Positions 612 through 56,548 of a stretch of 64,000 bases of DNA are shown here, piece by piece. Below the pieces are notes generated by a model. It was not told the origin of the DNA, searched no databases, and saw only the letters and a list, made by a program, of their open reading frames with translations. Positions within the stretch are counted from its first letter, which is position 1; each line of letters starts with the position of its first letter. Both the position numbers and the translations under genes were made by a program. The DNA is from Carnobacterium viridans (GTDB taxonomy: Bacteria; Bacillota; Bacilli; Lactobacillales; Carnobacteriaceae), in NCBI RefSeq assembly GCF_900102725.1, contig NZ_FNJW01000008.1:372001-436000 (forward strand), read 5' to 3'.

Positions 612-636
612 CATAAGTGACAGAAAAATAAACTTA

Positions 637-763
637 TCCTTTAATCCTAGTCCAGTGAGACTAAGAAGGAGCATAGTAAGAAAAGGCAAACGTACCTTCT
701 CTTACACTTACTCAACAGTAATATGCCCTCTTTGACCATTAAAGGTTAGGAGGGCATTTTTTA
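637..763 (+). promoter_or_regulatory. PyrR-dependent attenuator upstream of pyrR
   Basis: The segment around 647-670 contains the PyrR-binding hairpin core TAGTCCAGTGAGACTA (compare the consensus loop CAGAGAGGCU), flanked by TCCT/AGGA pairing. It is followed by a Rho-independent terminator: TGCCCTC (724-730) pairs with GAGGGCA (750-756) and is followed by six T. In the Bacillus paradigm, UMP-bound PyrR stabilises the first hairpin, which blocks the antiterminator and allows termination. Confidence 0.85.
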
Positions 764-790
764 TTGGCCAATCCTATTAAAGCGATATGA

Positions 791-2530: not shown

Positions 2531-3823
2531 ATGACGATCTGGATTAAAAATGCCATTATATTAACTAAAAAAGAAGACTATCAACCCATTGAACTTCTAA
2601 TCAATGGAGAACAAATCCAAGCTATCGGATCAGATTTAACACCGCTTATCCAAGATACGGATGAAGTCATCGATGCTCGCGGAGCATTAGTCGCTCCCGG
2701 CTTGATTGATGTACATGTTCATTTAAGAGAACCAGGATTTTCACATAAAGAAACCATTAAGACTGGAACGATGGCAGCCGCACGTGGCGGATTTACTACA
2801 GTTTGTGCTATGCCCAATGTTCAACCAGAACCGGATACAGCTGAGAAAATGCAAACTCTTCAAGCAAAGATTGCTCGAGATGCTGTGGTAAAAGTCAAAC
2901 AGTATGCACCAATCACAATGGGTCTACGTAGTGAAACATTAACCAATCAAAAAGAGTTATTAGAAGCTGGAGCATTTGCATTTACCAATGATGGAGTGGG
3001 TGTGCAGACAGCCGGTACGATGTATCTAGCTATGAAAGAAGCCGCAAAAAATAACACTATCATTGTGGCACATACCGAAGATGATTCCTTACTATTTGGT
3101 GGTGTCATGCACGAAGGCACACGCAATCAAACATTAGGAATGCCAGGAATCTTAAATGTTGCTGAAGCGAGTCAAATTGCACGTGATGTATTGCTTAGTG
3201 AAGCAACCGGTGCTCATTACCACATCTGTCATGTCTCAACAAAAGAAAGCGTAAGAGTCATTCGTGATGCAAAACGTGCGGGTATTCATGTAACGGCTGA
3301 AGTTTCACCCCACCATTTATTATTGACAGAAGATGACATTCCAAATGACACTAGTATCTATAAAATGAATCCTCCATTAAGAGGGAAAGAAGACCGCCAA
3401 GCATTGCTCGACGGTTTGTTGGATGGCACGATCGATATAATCGCAACCGATCATGCTCCACATAGCAAAGAAGAAAAAGCTGGTGGAATGATGGATTCTC
3501 CGTTTGGAATAGTAGGAAGTGAAACAGCCTTTTCTTTACTCTACACACACCTGGTAGAAAAAGGAATCGTATCACTTACTCAACTCATTGAATGGATGGC
3601 CTATAAACCAGCAAGACTTTTTAACTTAGATGGAGGAACGATTGCAGTTGGTCAAAAAGCCGACTTAGCCTTTTTCGATCTCTCAACGCCTAAAGAGATA
3701 GTAGCTAAAGACTTTCATTCTTTGGCTACGAACACACCTTTTATAGGATGGCGTGTTAAAGGAACGACCACAATGACATTCGTTGATGGAAAATTAGTTT
3801 ACCAGGAGGGTTCCGTACAATGA
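2531..3823 (+). CDS. pyrC: Dihydroorotase
   Basis: This zinc amidohydrolase cyclises carbamoyl aspartate to dihydroorotate. The metal-binding [10 protein letters not shown] motif is near residue 60 and the catalytic [10 protein letters not shown] segment is near residue 305; both are typical of class I dihydroorotases. The 430-residue length is normal. The start is supported by AGGAG 8 nt upstream. The stop codon overlaps the carA start (ATGA), implying translational coupling. Confidence 0.97.
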
Positions 3824-22777: not shown

Positions 22778-22900
22778 AAAAAAAGTAACCGTCTAAGCTT
22801 TAGCGAGTAGGACGATTACTTTTGTATGATGTTCTATAGTAGCTGCCGTCTTTAACGGTTCTATTCTAAAGAGGGGTATGTTGATGCATATCTCTCTTTT
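22778..22900 (-). ncRNA. Candidate small RNA with three hairpins and a terminator
   Basis: The minus strand reads as three hairpins: AAAGAG...CTCTTT (22899-22868) holding a C-rich side, CCGT...ACGG (about 22858-22846), and AAAGTAATCGTC...GACGGTTACTTT (22822-22782) followed by seven T. There is no gene just upstream on this strand that needs a terminator, and ddh has its own promoter downstream. A short transcript or a ddh leader are both possible; no convincing promoter was found. Confidence 0.35.
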
Positions 22901-23100
22901 CATGTATAATTTAGCATGGTTTGTTGGCTTTTTCAAATGAAATCACTATTTTAACCTTATTACAAATAAATTAAAAATTACAAACGAAACAGAATAGTAA
23001 TACTAGCTTAACGTATTTAATCCATTTCAATGGTATACTACTTAAGTAGTTTTCAAAAACGAAGACAAAGTAAATCATTTCAAAGATTGGGGAAATAAGT
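22901..23100. other. Intergenic region before the YrrS-like gene
   Basis: AT-rich; no frame with a ribosome binding site was seen. It should contain the promoter of the gene at 23101, but none stands out. Confidence 0.3.
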
Positions 23101-51390: not shown

Positions 51391-52440
51391 TTATATCGCA
51401 AATTTAGTTATTCTAATTGTATCATAAGTTTCCGAATTTTGTATTAGATTACCCCGAATAATTAAGTCGTTCATAGTTACTTCATTTCTTTGATGTTGAA
51501 TGCTTTCTAACACCTGAAACCAAGCAAGATAATTGTTCAGATACTTAGTGGCAACACCATTAAATCGTTGAATCCACGCTTTAAGTCTACGATGGTAATT
51601 GTTAACGTTCTGAATGTGGTATAGCCCTTTCGTTCGAACCATTCCATCTGATTTAAATTGGTAAATATCCATACCCTTTTCGGCAGCATAGGTCTTAAAG
51701 GCACGCCAAGAATCAGTACATAATATATTATCACTTGATAGTTTATGACCGATTGCTTTATCCAGTTGCTCTTTTGTTAATCTTCCCATTCCTAATACTT
51801 GCGAGAAAGTCATCTTGTCACGGTCCCTTGCAACTAATACACATACTTGTTCATTGCTGATACCACGTTTCTTGGCAGAACCACCACGCTTACGTGATTT
51901 TCTATCTTTTATCTTTCTTTGCCCTTTTTCAGAGTATAGGAAATAGGTCTCGTCCATTTCAACGATACCTTCGAAGTTTGGGATTTCTATCTGTTTTAAT
52001 GATGCTAAGAGCTTGTTTCTCCAGTAGAACAGAGTGACGTGAGTAACATTACCAACTAATTCAGCAGATTTTCGCAAAGAATAGCCCTCTATCATACACT
52101 CGATAAATTTTATCCATTGGTTGAGACGACGTGTTCGATATAGAGCTGTATTTGTAAGGTCAGTAAATGTCTTTTTACACGCTTTACAGCGATAGCGTTG
52201 CTTTTTCACTTCTTCTCCTTCAACAATAGTCGAATATGTTCCGAAACGGACGATATGCTCCGATTCACAATCTGGACATCGATAACCATTCTTATTTTTA
52301 CGCTCAGATATTTCTTGAAGAACAGTTCCTGTCGAAGAAGATGCAGTAAGTGCATCAATTAAATACTCTCGTAGTCGATGTTTCTCTGCTGGATTTAGTT
52401 TTTGGATGGCTTTTAGTATATCGGTTGCTCTCACGGTCAT
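51391..52440 (-). CDS. IS1595-family transposase
   Basis: The 349-residue protein has an N-terminal zinc-binding region with CPDC near residue 55 and CKAC near residue 84, a helix-turn-helix (SLRKSAELVGNVTHVTLFYWRNKLL), and an ISXO2-like catalytic domain: VEMDETYF (first Asp) near 163 and LCTDSWRAF (second Asp) near 243. The third position lies in HIQNVNNYHRRLKAW near 279, where Asn appears in place of the usual Glu, a variation found in part of the family. Full length, no stops. Start at 52440; a weak GTTGGTG site precedes it. Confidence 0.92.
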   Translation of the reverse strand: MTVRATDILKAIQKLNPAEKHRLREYLIDALTASSSTGTVLQEISERKNKNGYRCPDCESEHIVRFGTYSTIVEGEEVKKQRYRCKACKKTFTDLTNTALYRTRRLNQWIKFIECMIEGYSLRKSAELVGNVTHVTLFYWRNKLLASLKQIEIPNFEGIVEMDETYFLYSEKGQRKIKDRKSRKRGGSAKKRGISNEQVCVLVARDRDKMTFSQVLGMGRLTKEQLDKAIGHKLSSDNILCTDSWRAFKTYAAEKGMDIYQFKSDGMVRTKGLYHIQNVNNYHRRLKAWIQRFNGVATKYLNNYLAWFQVLESIQHQRNEVTMNDLIIRGNLIQNSETYDTIRITKFAI

Positions 52441-52522
52441 CACCAACTTCTATAATGATACACCCATTATAGAACATCCGTTCCGTTTGGTCAAATTATC
52501 AACAACTACCTTTAACAGAGCC

Positions 52523-53338: not shown

Positions 53339-55392
53339 TTAAGGTGTTGCTTTTATTTGTTGTTTCATCCAATTCTCCAACTCAGAAAAATGACTGTAAA
53401 CAAAAAAGTTTTCAGATTGAATTTGTTTTAGTCGTTTTTGATAAGCTGCTGCTTGCTCTAATTCTTTTTTCTGAACGTCTTTAACGACATTCATAACACC
53501 ATTTGTTATTGTAACAAATCCTATCTCTAAAAACACTGAAATAATAAAAATTAAATTATTTTCCTTTATTTTTAAATGAGCAGCTAATAATTTCAGTTTG
53601 TTCCGAACATCAATATCGACATGTGTTGCCGTATACTTAAAGACTTGTCCAAATTGACTTCGATTTGGCATCCCATTTAAATACAAATCTTCTCGACTAT
53701 AAAAACAAGCAATAATTTTTTCGGGACTTGATTGAGCTAAGAGCTCTTTGACCGAATCAATATCAGAAGGGCAATCGACAAAAATCAATTGAGTCGTTCT
53801 CATTTCAAATTGCGAAAAAGAATCAGGAGTCGTTAATACATGACGATAGCTATTCTCTGATAAAAGATGTGCATACTGTTCACTATTTTGTTGATCAAAA
53901 AAGACAAAGTCTGCTTCTTCAATTTTCCATAACGATGAAGGTATCTGAGTACTTCTAGAATCAAAGACTTGTACGCCTTCAATAGCTAAATCTTCTAACA
54001 TCAATTGTGTTTTGCGTGAACCATTCCATTCATTGATAGCTAACTTCCCAACTACAGAAACAGTTGAGTGTAATCCTATTTCTTCCGCAACAGGTCCAAA
54101 TTGAAAACCAATCACATCTAGAAAAACGTTTCCTTCTGCCAGTTTCATTTTTAGATGAGCTTGGTCTCCGCCAATTTGACGAACATCTTGAGACTCAAGA
54201 TGTTTAAAAAGGAAAGTCGGTTTAAGATTGTCTGTACCAAATGGAGCTAAACGGTTCAATTCTTCCACTACTTCCACAGTTGCTTCTTCGATGGTCAACT
54301 GGCTGTCTATTTGTGTTTCTTCACCCAATTCTTGTGCTGCACCATTTTCAACAGCATATTGATTGAGTTCATTTTGGATACGTTCGATATTTTCTAAAGG
54401 AACAGTTAAACCAGCGGCCATATGATGCCCACCAAATGTAGTAGTAAATTCTCGAACAGCATCTAACGCATTATACAGATTAAATGCCGGTATACTCCTA
54501 CCAGAACCTTTAGCCAAACCTTTAGCTGGATCAATGTTCATCACTAAAGCTGGTTTTCCAGTTTTGCCTACAATTTTACTAGCTACGATACCTAAGACAC
54601 CTTCATGCCAGTCTTCTTTTGCTAGAACATAAACATCTGAATCTACATCACTTTTTTCAATCATATCAAATGCTTCATTCGTTATCGTTGAAACATAAGC
54701 TTGACGTTCAGTATTTTTTTCTTGGACCAACTGTGCTAAAGAAGCTGCTTCTTCATCATCAAAAGTCGTCAACAATTCGACGGCTGGAGAGGCATCTCCT
54801 AATCGTCCAACAGCATTCAGACGCGGTCCTATAATAAATCCAACAGTTTCTTCATCAATTTCTTCCCTTTTTATTTTTGCTAATTGAAATAAAGCGGATA
54901 AACCGACGCGTTGGGTATTTTGTAATACAGCCAATCCTTGCATCACTAAAGCACGATTTTCATTCGTTAACGAAACTAGATCGGCTATCGTTCCTAAAGC
55001 AACCAAATCTAACAACTCTACCGGTATTTCTCCTAATAATGCCGTTGCTAATTTAAAAGCAACTCCCACTCCAGATAACTCTCCAAACGGGTACGAACCT
55101 TTTGGGTGTCTGGGATGAATGACAGCATAAGCCGAGGGCAATGTACTTGGTAATTCATGGTGATCCGTAACAATGACATCTATTCCTAACGCTTTTGCTC
55201 GATTAATGGCATCATGTCCAGCAACACCATTGTCACAAGTGACAATCAATTGTGTACCTTGTTCGATTAAACGTTCGAAAGCTGCTACATTGGGTCCATA
55301 TCCATCAGTAAATCGATTTGGAATATAGTAGTTGACTTCTCCACCAATCATTTCAATCGTTTCTTTTAAAACGGCTGTACTTGTGACGCCAT
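53339..55392 (-). CDS. recJ: RecJ single-strand exonuclease, 3' exon
   Basis: This is the larger exon, read from 55392 down to the stop at 53339. It resumes in the middle of an Asp codon (AT of GAT) and continues [17 protein letters not shown]. It holds the DHH motif [25 protein letters not shown], the DHHA1 motif [12 protein letters not shown] and the Firmicutes C-terminal domain. RecJ is a 5'-3' single-strand exonuclease in recombination and repair. Joined to the 5' exon (56548-56269), the frame is 778 codons including stop, matching RecJ of Bacillus-like bacteria. In the unspliced DNA, the frame continues upstream only into the intron and has no proper start. Confidence 0.93.
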
Positions 55393-56268
55393 ATAGTGAT
55401 AGGTAACCTCTTGAATCATTCTCCAGGTTTTCCCCCACTCCACACCGTGCGTGAGACTTTCACCTCACACGGCGTTCCATCGTTCTAGACCATCCCGACT
55501 TAAAGTTGCCTATAGCAAATTAAATAAAAAGTATCATTGCTTTATGCTTATGGTTAGAAAAAAATTTATCTAATCACTGTGCAACTCTAGTTTATTAAAA
55601 TAATCTAAATCGATTCGAGCCCCTCCCTCCACTATTTGTTATCATAGCTTCATCGGTACTATGGCTCTACTTTCACTTAGACAAATTAGCTTATTTTTCT
55701 CTTACGAGATTTTCGTCTAAACTGCTTCGTTTGCTGGTAAAAGCATCCACATCCTAAGCTTCATACGTTCCAATCCAATTATCTTGTTCTATATATCCTT
55801 AGGTTTCTTCTATGGGCCGTTGCACTTGATTATCCCTTTAAGATAATATGGTATTTCATAACGTCAGATTTTTACTCTACCACATGCAATAAGATTGACT
55901 CAAGGCGCAATCCTAGCGCTGCATTTCTACATCGCTTACGTATCGACTCGTACATTCAAAGATTCGTCAGTTTCTTTTAAGAAACATTCTAACCATAGAT
56001 AATTTCTAAGACCCCCAGCCTATCAAAAACAAAATCCACCTCTGGATTTTTTTCGTGTAAGGAACATACCCTACTTACGGCTTTTTTCAGCTGACTTCAC
56101 CGAGCTTTATACTTTCGAGTTTTTTACCTGCCCAAAAGCATATCGGAGGATTAGGGGAGTCGTTTCAAGACGTTACTCTCTCATTCCAACTCTCATTAGA
56201 TCAGTTCTCCATATCTTAGTACAACTAAAGACATGTGCACAAACTTTTCACTTGTGAACGTATCGCAC
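55393..56268 (-). mobile_element. ORF-less group II intron inserted in recJ
   Basis: The minus strand starts GTGCGATACG at 56268, matching the GUGYG consensus, and ends ...CACTAT at 55393. Domain V is at 55475-55442: exactly 34 nt, an 8-bp lower helix beginning ACGCCGTG (CGC at the catalytic triad position), a 2-nt CG bulge, a 6-bp upper helix and a GAAA tetraloop. Domain VI follows, with a candidate branch-point A at 55400, 8 nt from the 3' end. Candidate exon contacts are IBS1 ATGCAG (56274-56269) with UUGCAU (55889-55884), and IBS2 CGACT (56282-56278) with AGUCG (55948-55944). No reverse transcriptase frame is present; about 130 nt remain in domain IV. It needs a maturase in trans, or self-splices. 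Confidence 0.92.
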
Positions 56269-56548
56269 CTGCATCATAGTCGCCATAAATCGTTATCTGT
56301 TCTCCTTGTTCAACCGCATTTGTGATCCTAGAAACTGCACTTTCCATGTCATACATCAAATAAGGGTCATAAATCCATGATTCATCAGGTTTGATAAATC
56401 GTTCTATTTTTTCTCTAGAATCTAGGCCTCTTTGTAAACACAATTCAATAAACAAAGAAGATAAGTTTAATGTTTTACTTAAATCTGCTGCAATTTCAGT
56501 ATTCGTGTTTCCTTCTTTTAATTTCCATTTTGTACGAGACTTCAACAA
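56269..56548 (-). CDS. recJ: RecJ, 5' exon
   Basis: Codons 1-93 and the first base of codon 94. The exon encodes the N-terminal part of RecJ (KEGNTNTEIAADLSKTLNLS, IKPDESWIYDPYLMYDM) up to ITIYGDYDA, where the intron splits the next Asp codon of the DYDADG phosphoesterase motif I. If unspliced, translation runs 14 codons into the intron and stops at 56225, giving a dead 107-residue fragment. Confidence 0.92.

Follow-up and report, generated by a model that had tools for sequence, protein, structure and literature searches.

An ORF-less group II intron that splits recJ in Carnobacterium is probably inherited with the gene and spliced without a group II maturase

The recJ gene of Carnobacterium viridans is interrupted, within an aspartate codon of its DADG motif, by an 876-nt group II intron without an open reading frame (ORF), and intron DNA is present, in one copy each, in all 6 genomes of the genus that were searched (in C. 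jeotgali, genome G003, as two pieces). The explanation that we favor, with a probability of roughly 0.85, is that this intron belongs to a lineage homing to recJ that lost its RT/maturase gene (IEP) in Carnobacterium and turned into a resident, splicing-only intron that is inherited with recJ and spliced without a group II maturase. The window, that is, the whole stretch of 64,000 nucleotides that was analyzed, comes from a genome of 2.76 Mb (G000; 9 contigs, 99.9% complete). On its minus strand, recJ extends over 56548-53339 and is interrupted by 876 bases at 56268-55393, so that the gene consists of the following parts:

56269..56548, minus strand: recJ exon 1, with a TTG start, 93 codons and the first base of the split Asp codon (ORF list, joined translation)
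55393..56268, minus strand: ORF-less group II intron, 876 nt (Rfam matches and introns of relatives)
53339..55392, minus strand: recJ exon 2, the remainder of RecJ including the stop (ORF list, joined translation, RecJ search)

Joining 56269 to 55392 produces GCA-G/AT-GGC and a 777-aa RecJ with DADG in frame, exactly as the first-pass annotation had predicted, and the joined protein scores well above the equivalog cut-off of TIGR00644 (592.4 bits vs 396.9; NCBIfam). The split codon is that of the Asp following Ala in DYDADG, residue 94. If left unspliced, the recJ frame stops after 107 aa (ORF list), and the RecJ protein search of this genome yielded no second, intact RecJ, which the first-pass annotation had named as a possible refutation. 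The intron holds neither a 70-codon stop-free stretch nor an internal ORF of 60 aa; accordingly, the reverse transcriptase that a mobile group II intron would carry in domain 4 is missing, as had been claimed. Elsewhere in the window, there are a RatA-like RNA antitoxin just above the Rfam cut-off (22820-22913, minus strand; 51.5 vs 49 bits), a PyrR binding site barely over its cut-off (634-764, plus strand; 55.4 vs 54 bits) and, beyond the ORF next after recJ, a 351-aa ORF (51391-52446, minus strand) that we take to be an IS1595/ISXO2-type transposase.

The identity of the intron is secured by covariance models and by a consensus fold. Two Rfam models exceed their gathering thresholds on the minus strand: RF02004 covers 56209-56004 with 173.3 bits (E 2.8e-39), and RF00029 covers 55477-55393 with 62.7 bits (E 6e-10). 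These are the only matches to either model in the 64-kb window, so there are no extra D5-D6 copies near the intron. The RF00029 match ends on exactly the 3' base that had been predicted, 55393, and covers the 34-nt domain V hairpin; the intron ends, GTGCG on the 5' side and ...CTAT on the 3' side, conform to the GUGYG/AY ends of group II introns. The consensus fold, which was built from the seven ORF-less recJ introns of the family, comprises six domains in the group II order, with the domain names being our assignment on that fold:

56264..56268, minus strand: 5' consensus GTGCG, identical in 7/7 aligned ORF-less family introns
55763..56263, minus strand: assigned domain 1 (consensus fold, pair counts)
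55861..55867, minus strand: candidate EBS1, seven bases in or at the edge of a domain 1 hairpin loop, intron positions 402-408
56269..56274, minus strand: putative IBS1, the last six bases of exon 1 (pairing scan with candidate EBS1)
55675..55759, minus strand: assigned domain 2 (consensus fold, pair counts)
55617..55667, minus strand: assigned domain 3 (consensus fold, pair counts)
55479..55614, minus strand: assigned domain 4, basal stem retained, loop variable and without ORF (consensus fold)
55442..55475, minus strand: domain 5, the 34-nt catalytic hairpin (Rfam, pair counts)
55395..55439, minus strand: assigned domain 6 (consensus fold, pair counts)
55400, minus strand: bulged A of domain 6, unpaired in the consensus fold, eighth base from the 3' splice site

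The bulged A thus lies where group II introns have it, 7-8 nt from the 3' end, and is the presumed branch point. Of the 228 consensus pairs, 53 are changed on both sides with the pair kept, compared with 5-9 when the partners are slid and a mean of 22.5 (sd 3.1) in shuffles, none of 500 of which reaches 53; the fold derives from the same seven sequences, which favors it over the slid versions, and kinship alone can exceed shuffles, but the two-sided changes nevertheless go far beyond the shuffled level. Pairing is found in 97.9% of the cells of the consensus fold vs 37-42% with slid partners. In domain 5, all cells of the 14 pairs are paired and 13 pairs are invariant across the 7 sequences. 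Domain 4, the location of the IEP gene in the introns of relatives, varies in sequence and length outside its basal stem. The open frame of exon 2 runs into the 3' end of the intron (53339-55438, minus strand), and automatic annotation may therefore mistake a site within domain 6 for the start of a 699-aa protein; all six members of the genus have a frame that is open over 706 aa (RecJ search).

The exon-binding sequences are less clear-cut. The candidate EBS1 pairs with the six last bases of the exon in 18/18 recJ introns, allowing at most one bulged base and a one-base slip, and the bulge is required in 17 of them; 55867-55861 is the only place in the alignment that reaches 18/18 for those exon bases, but a second place reaches 17/18, and the assignment is therefore tentative. 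The simple six-base complement UUGCAU (intron 380-385), exact in 7 introns, was rejected as EBS1 because it is located within a predicted domain 1 helix (helix 21). Pairing scans of the recJ introns found no EBS2. Under the mechanism that we propose, the recJ pre-mRNA would fold into the six-domain ribozyme and excise itself in the usual two steps, by branching from the presumed branch A at 55400, and GCA-G would be joined to AT-GGC to encode the full RecJ.

Within the family, a RecJ protein search divides the 18 genomes into 8 with an interrupted recJ (G000-G005, G010 and G017, with two matches each corresponding to the two exons) and 10 with a continuous one. The comparison with intron-free relatives, which had been suggested as a check of the predicted join, bears it out: all 10 continuous genes have an uninterrupted junction, DYDADG in nine and DYDSDG in G012, and the same codon is the intron site in all 8 genomes that have the intron. 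Some match to intron DNA occurs in 11 of the 18 family genomes; for RF02004, the recJ intron is the single match of every genome from G000 to G005, whereas the other D1-D4 models were run on the window alone. Among 395 genomes sampled from the order, a junction pattern consisting of the exon codons GDYD[A/V] and GTGYGM matches exactly the eight that the RecJ search had identified, with 0 matches for the reversed control. In GTDB r220, this pattern recovers 65 stretches, 16 of which are recJ with the intron as judged by RecJ tblastn on one or both sides: C. jeotgali, Pisciglobus halotolerans (G017) and 14 further records from Sporosarcina, Kurthia, Lysinibacillus, Caryophanon, Metalysinibacillus and Bacillus, six genera that we take to belong to the order Bacillales. 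A further 47 stretches were set aside. Two stretches from metagenome-assembled genomes, L092 (Clostridium) and L095 (Firmicutes), show an intron-like start after GDYDV/A, with little sequence past the junction and no RecJ match at 1e-4. In a plasmid collection, 221 records, 180 of them from Enterococcus, partially match the intron RNA, and none covers 80% of it in one place.

Eighteen introns can be read end to end, 8 from the family and 10 from the 14 further records (L064, L080, L094 and L112 were dropped as having no 3' splice site in the stretch examined), and, within the extent of the stretches, every one of the 18 restores the frame at the same codon. The recJ introns of Sporosarcina, Lysinibacillus and Bacillus resemble those of Carnobacterium in the codon, the ends and an alignable ribozyme but differ in coding capacity. 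An intact frame of 637-640 aa is present in 7 of the 18, all among the 10 Bacillales introns and none in Carnobacterium; the one of these seven that was tested, from L. mangiferihumi, is a group II RT/maturase (TIGR04416, 353 bits). The IEP is broken in 2 introns, those of G010 (two internal stops) and K. huakuii (1657-nt intron), and the remaining 9 introns, of 664-896 nt, are ORF-less.

Both recJ exons are under purifying selection in Carnobacterium. Across the 15 pairs of the 6 species (NG86), w is 0.08-0.20 for exon 1 and 0.07-0.11 for exon 2, values that are rough because dS is near or above 1 in most pairs; for the soundest pair, G000-G005, dS is about 0.4 (0.39-0.40) and w is 0.19 and 0.07, respectively. 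In the same pair, the ribozyme core, D1-3, differs by 0.064 (JC), about six-fold below the dS of recJ. The intron and RecJ trees share the genus clade, the grouping of G000 with G005 (100/100 in both) and that of G001 with G004 (100/100 and 86/83), with G002 and G003 unresolved in both trees and long-branch warnings for K. senegalensis in the intron tree and G016 in the RecJ tree. Selection combined with matching trees is the pattern to be expected of a working intron inherited with recJ; a dead insertion would not keep the exons. The alternative that recJ is a pseudogene and no RecJ is made could appeal to the stop after 107 aa, but we reject it as extremely unlikely given the selection on both exons, the conservation of the catalytic core and its base pairs, the lack of a second recJ and the exact in-frame join in every intron of the set. 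From these joins and the selection, we infer that the recJ intron splices, and does so efficiently enough.

How the intron came to occupy this site is suggested by comparing its divergence with that of the host protein. In five chosen cross-genus pairs within Bacillales, the D1-3 regions differ by a p distance of only 0.08-0.12, whereas the RecJ proteins are 29-52% different (the lowest value being based on just 392 aa), a contrast indicative of horizontal homing to a single site; the ORF-less intron of K. senegalensis departs from this pattern, at a distance of 0.28 from that of K. huakuii with RecJ 22% different. Within Carnobacteriaceae, G010 and G017 sit among intron-free species in the RecJ tree, and the G000-G010 intron distance of 0.19 is near the 0.06-0.15 found within the genus (five pairs), yet their RecJ proteins are 42% different, as opposed to 7-19%. 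These observations weigh against the presence of the intron in three genera of the family being a product of old vertical inheritance with many losses, a scenario that would fit the intron tree, where the 8 family introns cluster in a single clade separate from the 10 of Bacillales, but that we regard as rather unlikely; separate entries of one intron lineage into the family are more likely than one old gain followed by many losses. Since both clades contain ORF-less copies and the IEPs of G010 and K. huakuii are broken, IEP loss apparently occurred at least twice. Thus, judging from the distribution of the introns, the IEP-bearing form would be mobile and, in Bacilli, spread by homing to the recJ codons for DADG, and in the Carnobacterium lineage, gain of the intron would have been followed by loss of the IEP, leaving a splicing-only copy passed on with recJ.

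The loss of the IEP raises the question of how the intron is spliced. The first-pass annotation left a choice between splicing in cis and a maturase encoded elsewhere; the former stands, and the latter is now unlikely because the genome yielded no group II IEP in searches that covered RT-type proteins. The single RVT_1 match in the C. viridans genome (G000:C8:630683-631318, L002) is a 468-aa DRT2 reverse transcriptase (PADLOC E 3e-130), which functions in anti-phage defence and was not counted as a maturase; that a maturase gene was missed in this 99.9% complete assembly is conceivable but unlikely. A search for related IEPs gave no match in G000, G001, G002, G004, G005 and G017, and an RVT_1 search gave none in the last five, which are 5 of the 7 other recJ-intron genomes of the family. 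Nor was there an IEP match in K. senegalensis or in a Caryophanon metagenome-assembled genome (completeness not stated), both with an ORF-less recJ intron; the same search was positive in 14/16 genomes. Altogether, a group II IEP went undetected in 8 of the 9 genomes whose recJ intron is ORF-less. The remaining one is G003, in which RVT_1 has three matches, all of a distant group II-like type with 38-39% identity to the query IEP, and help in trans from these RTs is possible in this species. In G010, RVT_1 matches nothing but the broken IEP within that genome's recJ intron. Among the genomes of the four dropped introns, those of L064 and L080 encode a complete close IEP (88-89%), that of L094 has broken pieces of a close IEP, and that of L112 (Lysinibacillus macroides) yields only a 46% IEP match.

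Splicing of the recJ intron with help in trans from a group II RT/maturase encoded elsewhere would conform to the rule that ORF-less bacterial introns sit with related IEPs, as stated in the available text of PMC4424553, and the RT genes of G003 could be cited in its favor. Considering the eight genomes without an IEP match and the single RF02004 match, the recJ intron itself, in each of G000-G005, we deem such help very improbable. If the genome encodes no group II maturase, the ribozyme must splice alone or with a non-RT host factor; most likely, splicing is autonomous or helped in this way, such that the ribozyme would fold and react unaided or with a general host RNA-binding factor.

The arrangement indicates dependence of RecJ on splicing only; regulation by splicing is a proposal. 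In one version of it, the intron would be a condition-dependent switch, responsive to temperature, Mg2+ or growth, and would be maintained because it determines how much RecJ is made. Every RecJ molecule depends on splicing and the one site is retained in all 6 genomes of the genus, but retention is also expected if precise intron loss is rare, and 10 family genomes have recJ without the intron; we consider this role quite improbable. The Ll.LtrB intron, reported to lower host-gene expression, might be adduced in support; it does so by decreasing host-gene mRNA via mRNA targeting, an effect mentioned alongside the rarity of such introns in housekeeping genes (PMC6003770, available text). By analogy, an intron that has lost its IEP would spare the host gene this cost, and an ORF-less copy in recJ could then be tolerable.

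Group II introns also split other genes in the family. Starting from intergenic Rfam matches, ORF-less introns of 812, 818 and 806 nt were located in the tRNA-Arg(CCU) genes of G014, G015 and G017, respectively:

L024, minus strand: tRNA-Arg(CCU) intron of G014
L025:4157-4974: tRNA-Arg(CCU) intron of G015
L023:6012-6817: tRNA-Arg(CCU) intron of G017

The insertion site directly follows the third base of the anticodon, and ARAGORN identifies the joined sequence as tRNA-Arg(cct) in 3/3 cases. With the joined tRNA as query, copies of at least 69/74 bases at 92-99% were retrieved from 11 of the 18 family genomes, and only weaker or partial matches from another four; in the three genomes with the intron, the two halves match best, and the remaining matches, at 76-80% over parts, are taken to be other tRNAs. 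By this similarity search, as distinct from a full tRNA scan, the split gene looks like the only tRNA-Arg(CCU) gene in these genomes. RVT_1 matches are present in G014 and G015 and absent from Pisciglobus halotolerans. For bacterial tRNA genes, the available text of one paper lists group I introns alone (PMC4033280), and another notes only broadly that Bacteria have introns of groups I and II (PMC4390854). A BsrC-family sRNA lies downstream of the tRNA-Arg intron at L024:3214-3301 (some 460 bases away) and L025:5700-5787 (some 730). On a 64-kb plasmid-like contig of G008 (C1, L021), a related group II intron with an intact 628-aa RT/maturase, starting at 3460, splits a topoisomerase gene just after DSDREGEN, presumably the toprim motif; the joined frame stays open, with the 3' end of the intron not fixed to the base. 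As with the recJ intron, this target is an acidic active-site motif.

Group II introns in housekeeping contexts comparable to recJ have reportedly been described before, in recA of Geobacillus kaustophilus (Chee and Takami, 2005) and in a heat-shock operon (Adamidi, 2003). ORF-less bacterial introns, according to the available text of PMC4424553, are rare and nearly always found beside related IEPs, with C.te.I1 of Clostridium tetani as the sole stated exception. Presented by its authors as the first bacterial example of this kind and capable of self-splicing in vitro, this intron is a close parallel in that it is ORF-less and resides in a genome without an IEP, as the C. viridans intron appears to do; it differs in interrupting a surface-layer protein gene, undergoing four alternative splices and not being found in other Clostridium genomes (PMC3919590, available text), whereas the recJ intron, with one D5 in the window, lies in a repair gene, has one exact join and occurs in every genome of the genus searched. 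A pipeline count of ORF-less introns names no recJ case in its available text (PMC8919778), and six ORF-less introns have been reported in phages, with trans help suggested for some (PMC12350094, available text). Our literature searches, including one for 'group II intron' with 'Carnobacterium', did not find the recJ intron; the Zimmerly-lab intron database and most subscription papers were outside their scope, and a listing there is possible.

The ORF-less introns of plant organelles are likewise splicing-only, located in housekeeping genes and vertically inherited, but are served by many described host splicing factors (PMC4424553, available text), whereas none is known for the recJ intron, the host of which is a bacterium. 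With the IEP lost and the intron kept at one site genus-wide, the recJ intron appears to behave like mitochondrial and chloroplast introns, which is rare in bacteria. A broader proposition is that some Carnobacteriaceae have become organelle-like, with ORF-less introns in housekeeping genes (recJ throughout the genus; recJ and the seemingly only tRNA-Arg(CCU) in Pisciglobus), no group II RT, splicing by RNA alone or with a recruited host factor, and splicing gating RecJ under cold or low Mg2+; taken as a whole, this is speculative and in our judgment doubtful.

The prevailing view of group II introns in bacteria is that they persist through mobility and reside mostly outside housekeeping genes, and that those without an ORF require a related maturase, with one stated exception (PMC4424553, available text). 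A single recJ codon presents the full series, with the IEP intact, broken and absent, and the ORF-less copies are kept genus-wide without a detectable maturase. Whether maturase-free splicing can suffice for a host gene thereby becomes testable in culturable bacteria, as does the possibility that loss of the IEP is the step that would convert a selfish intron into a resident that the host tolerates, as has been presumed of organellar and spliceosomal introns.
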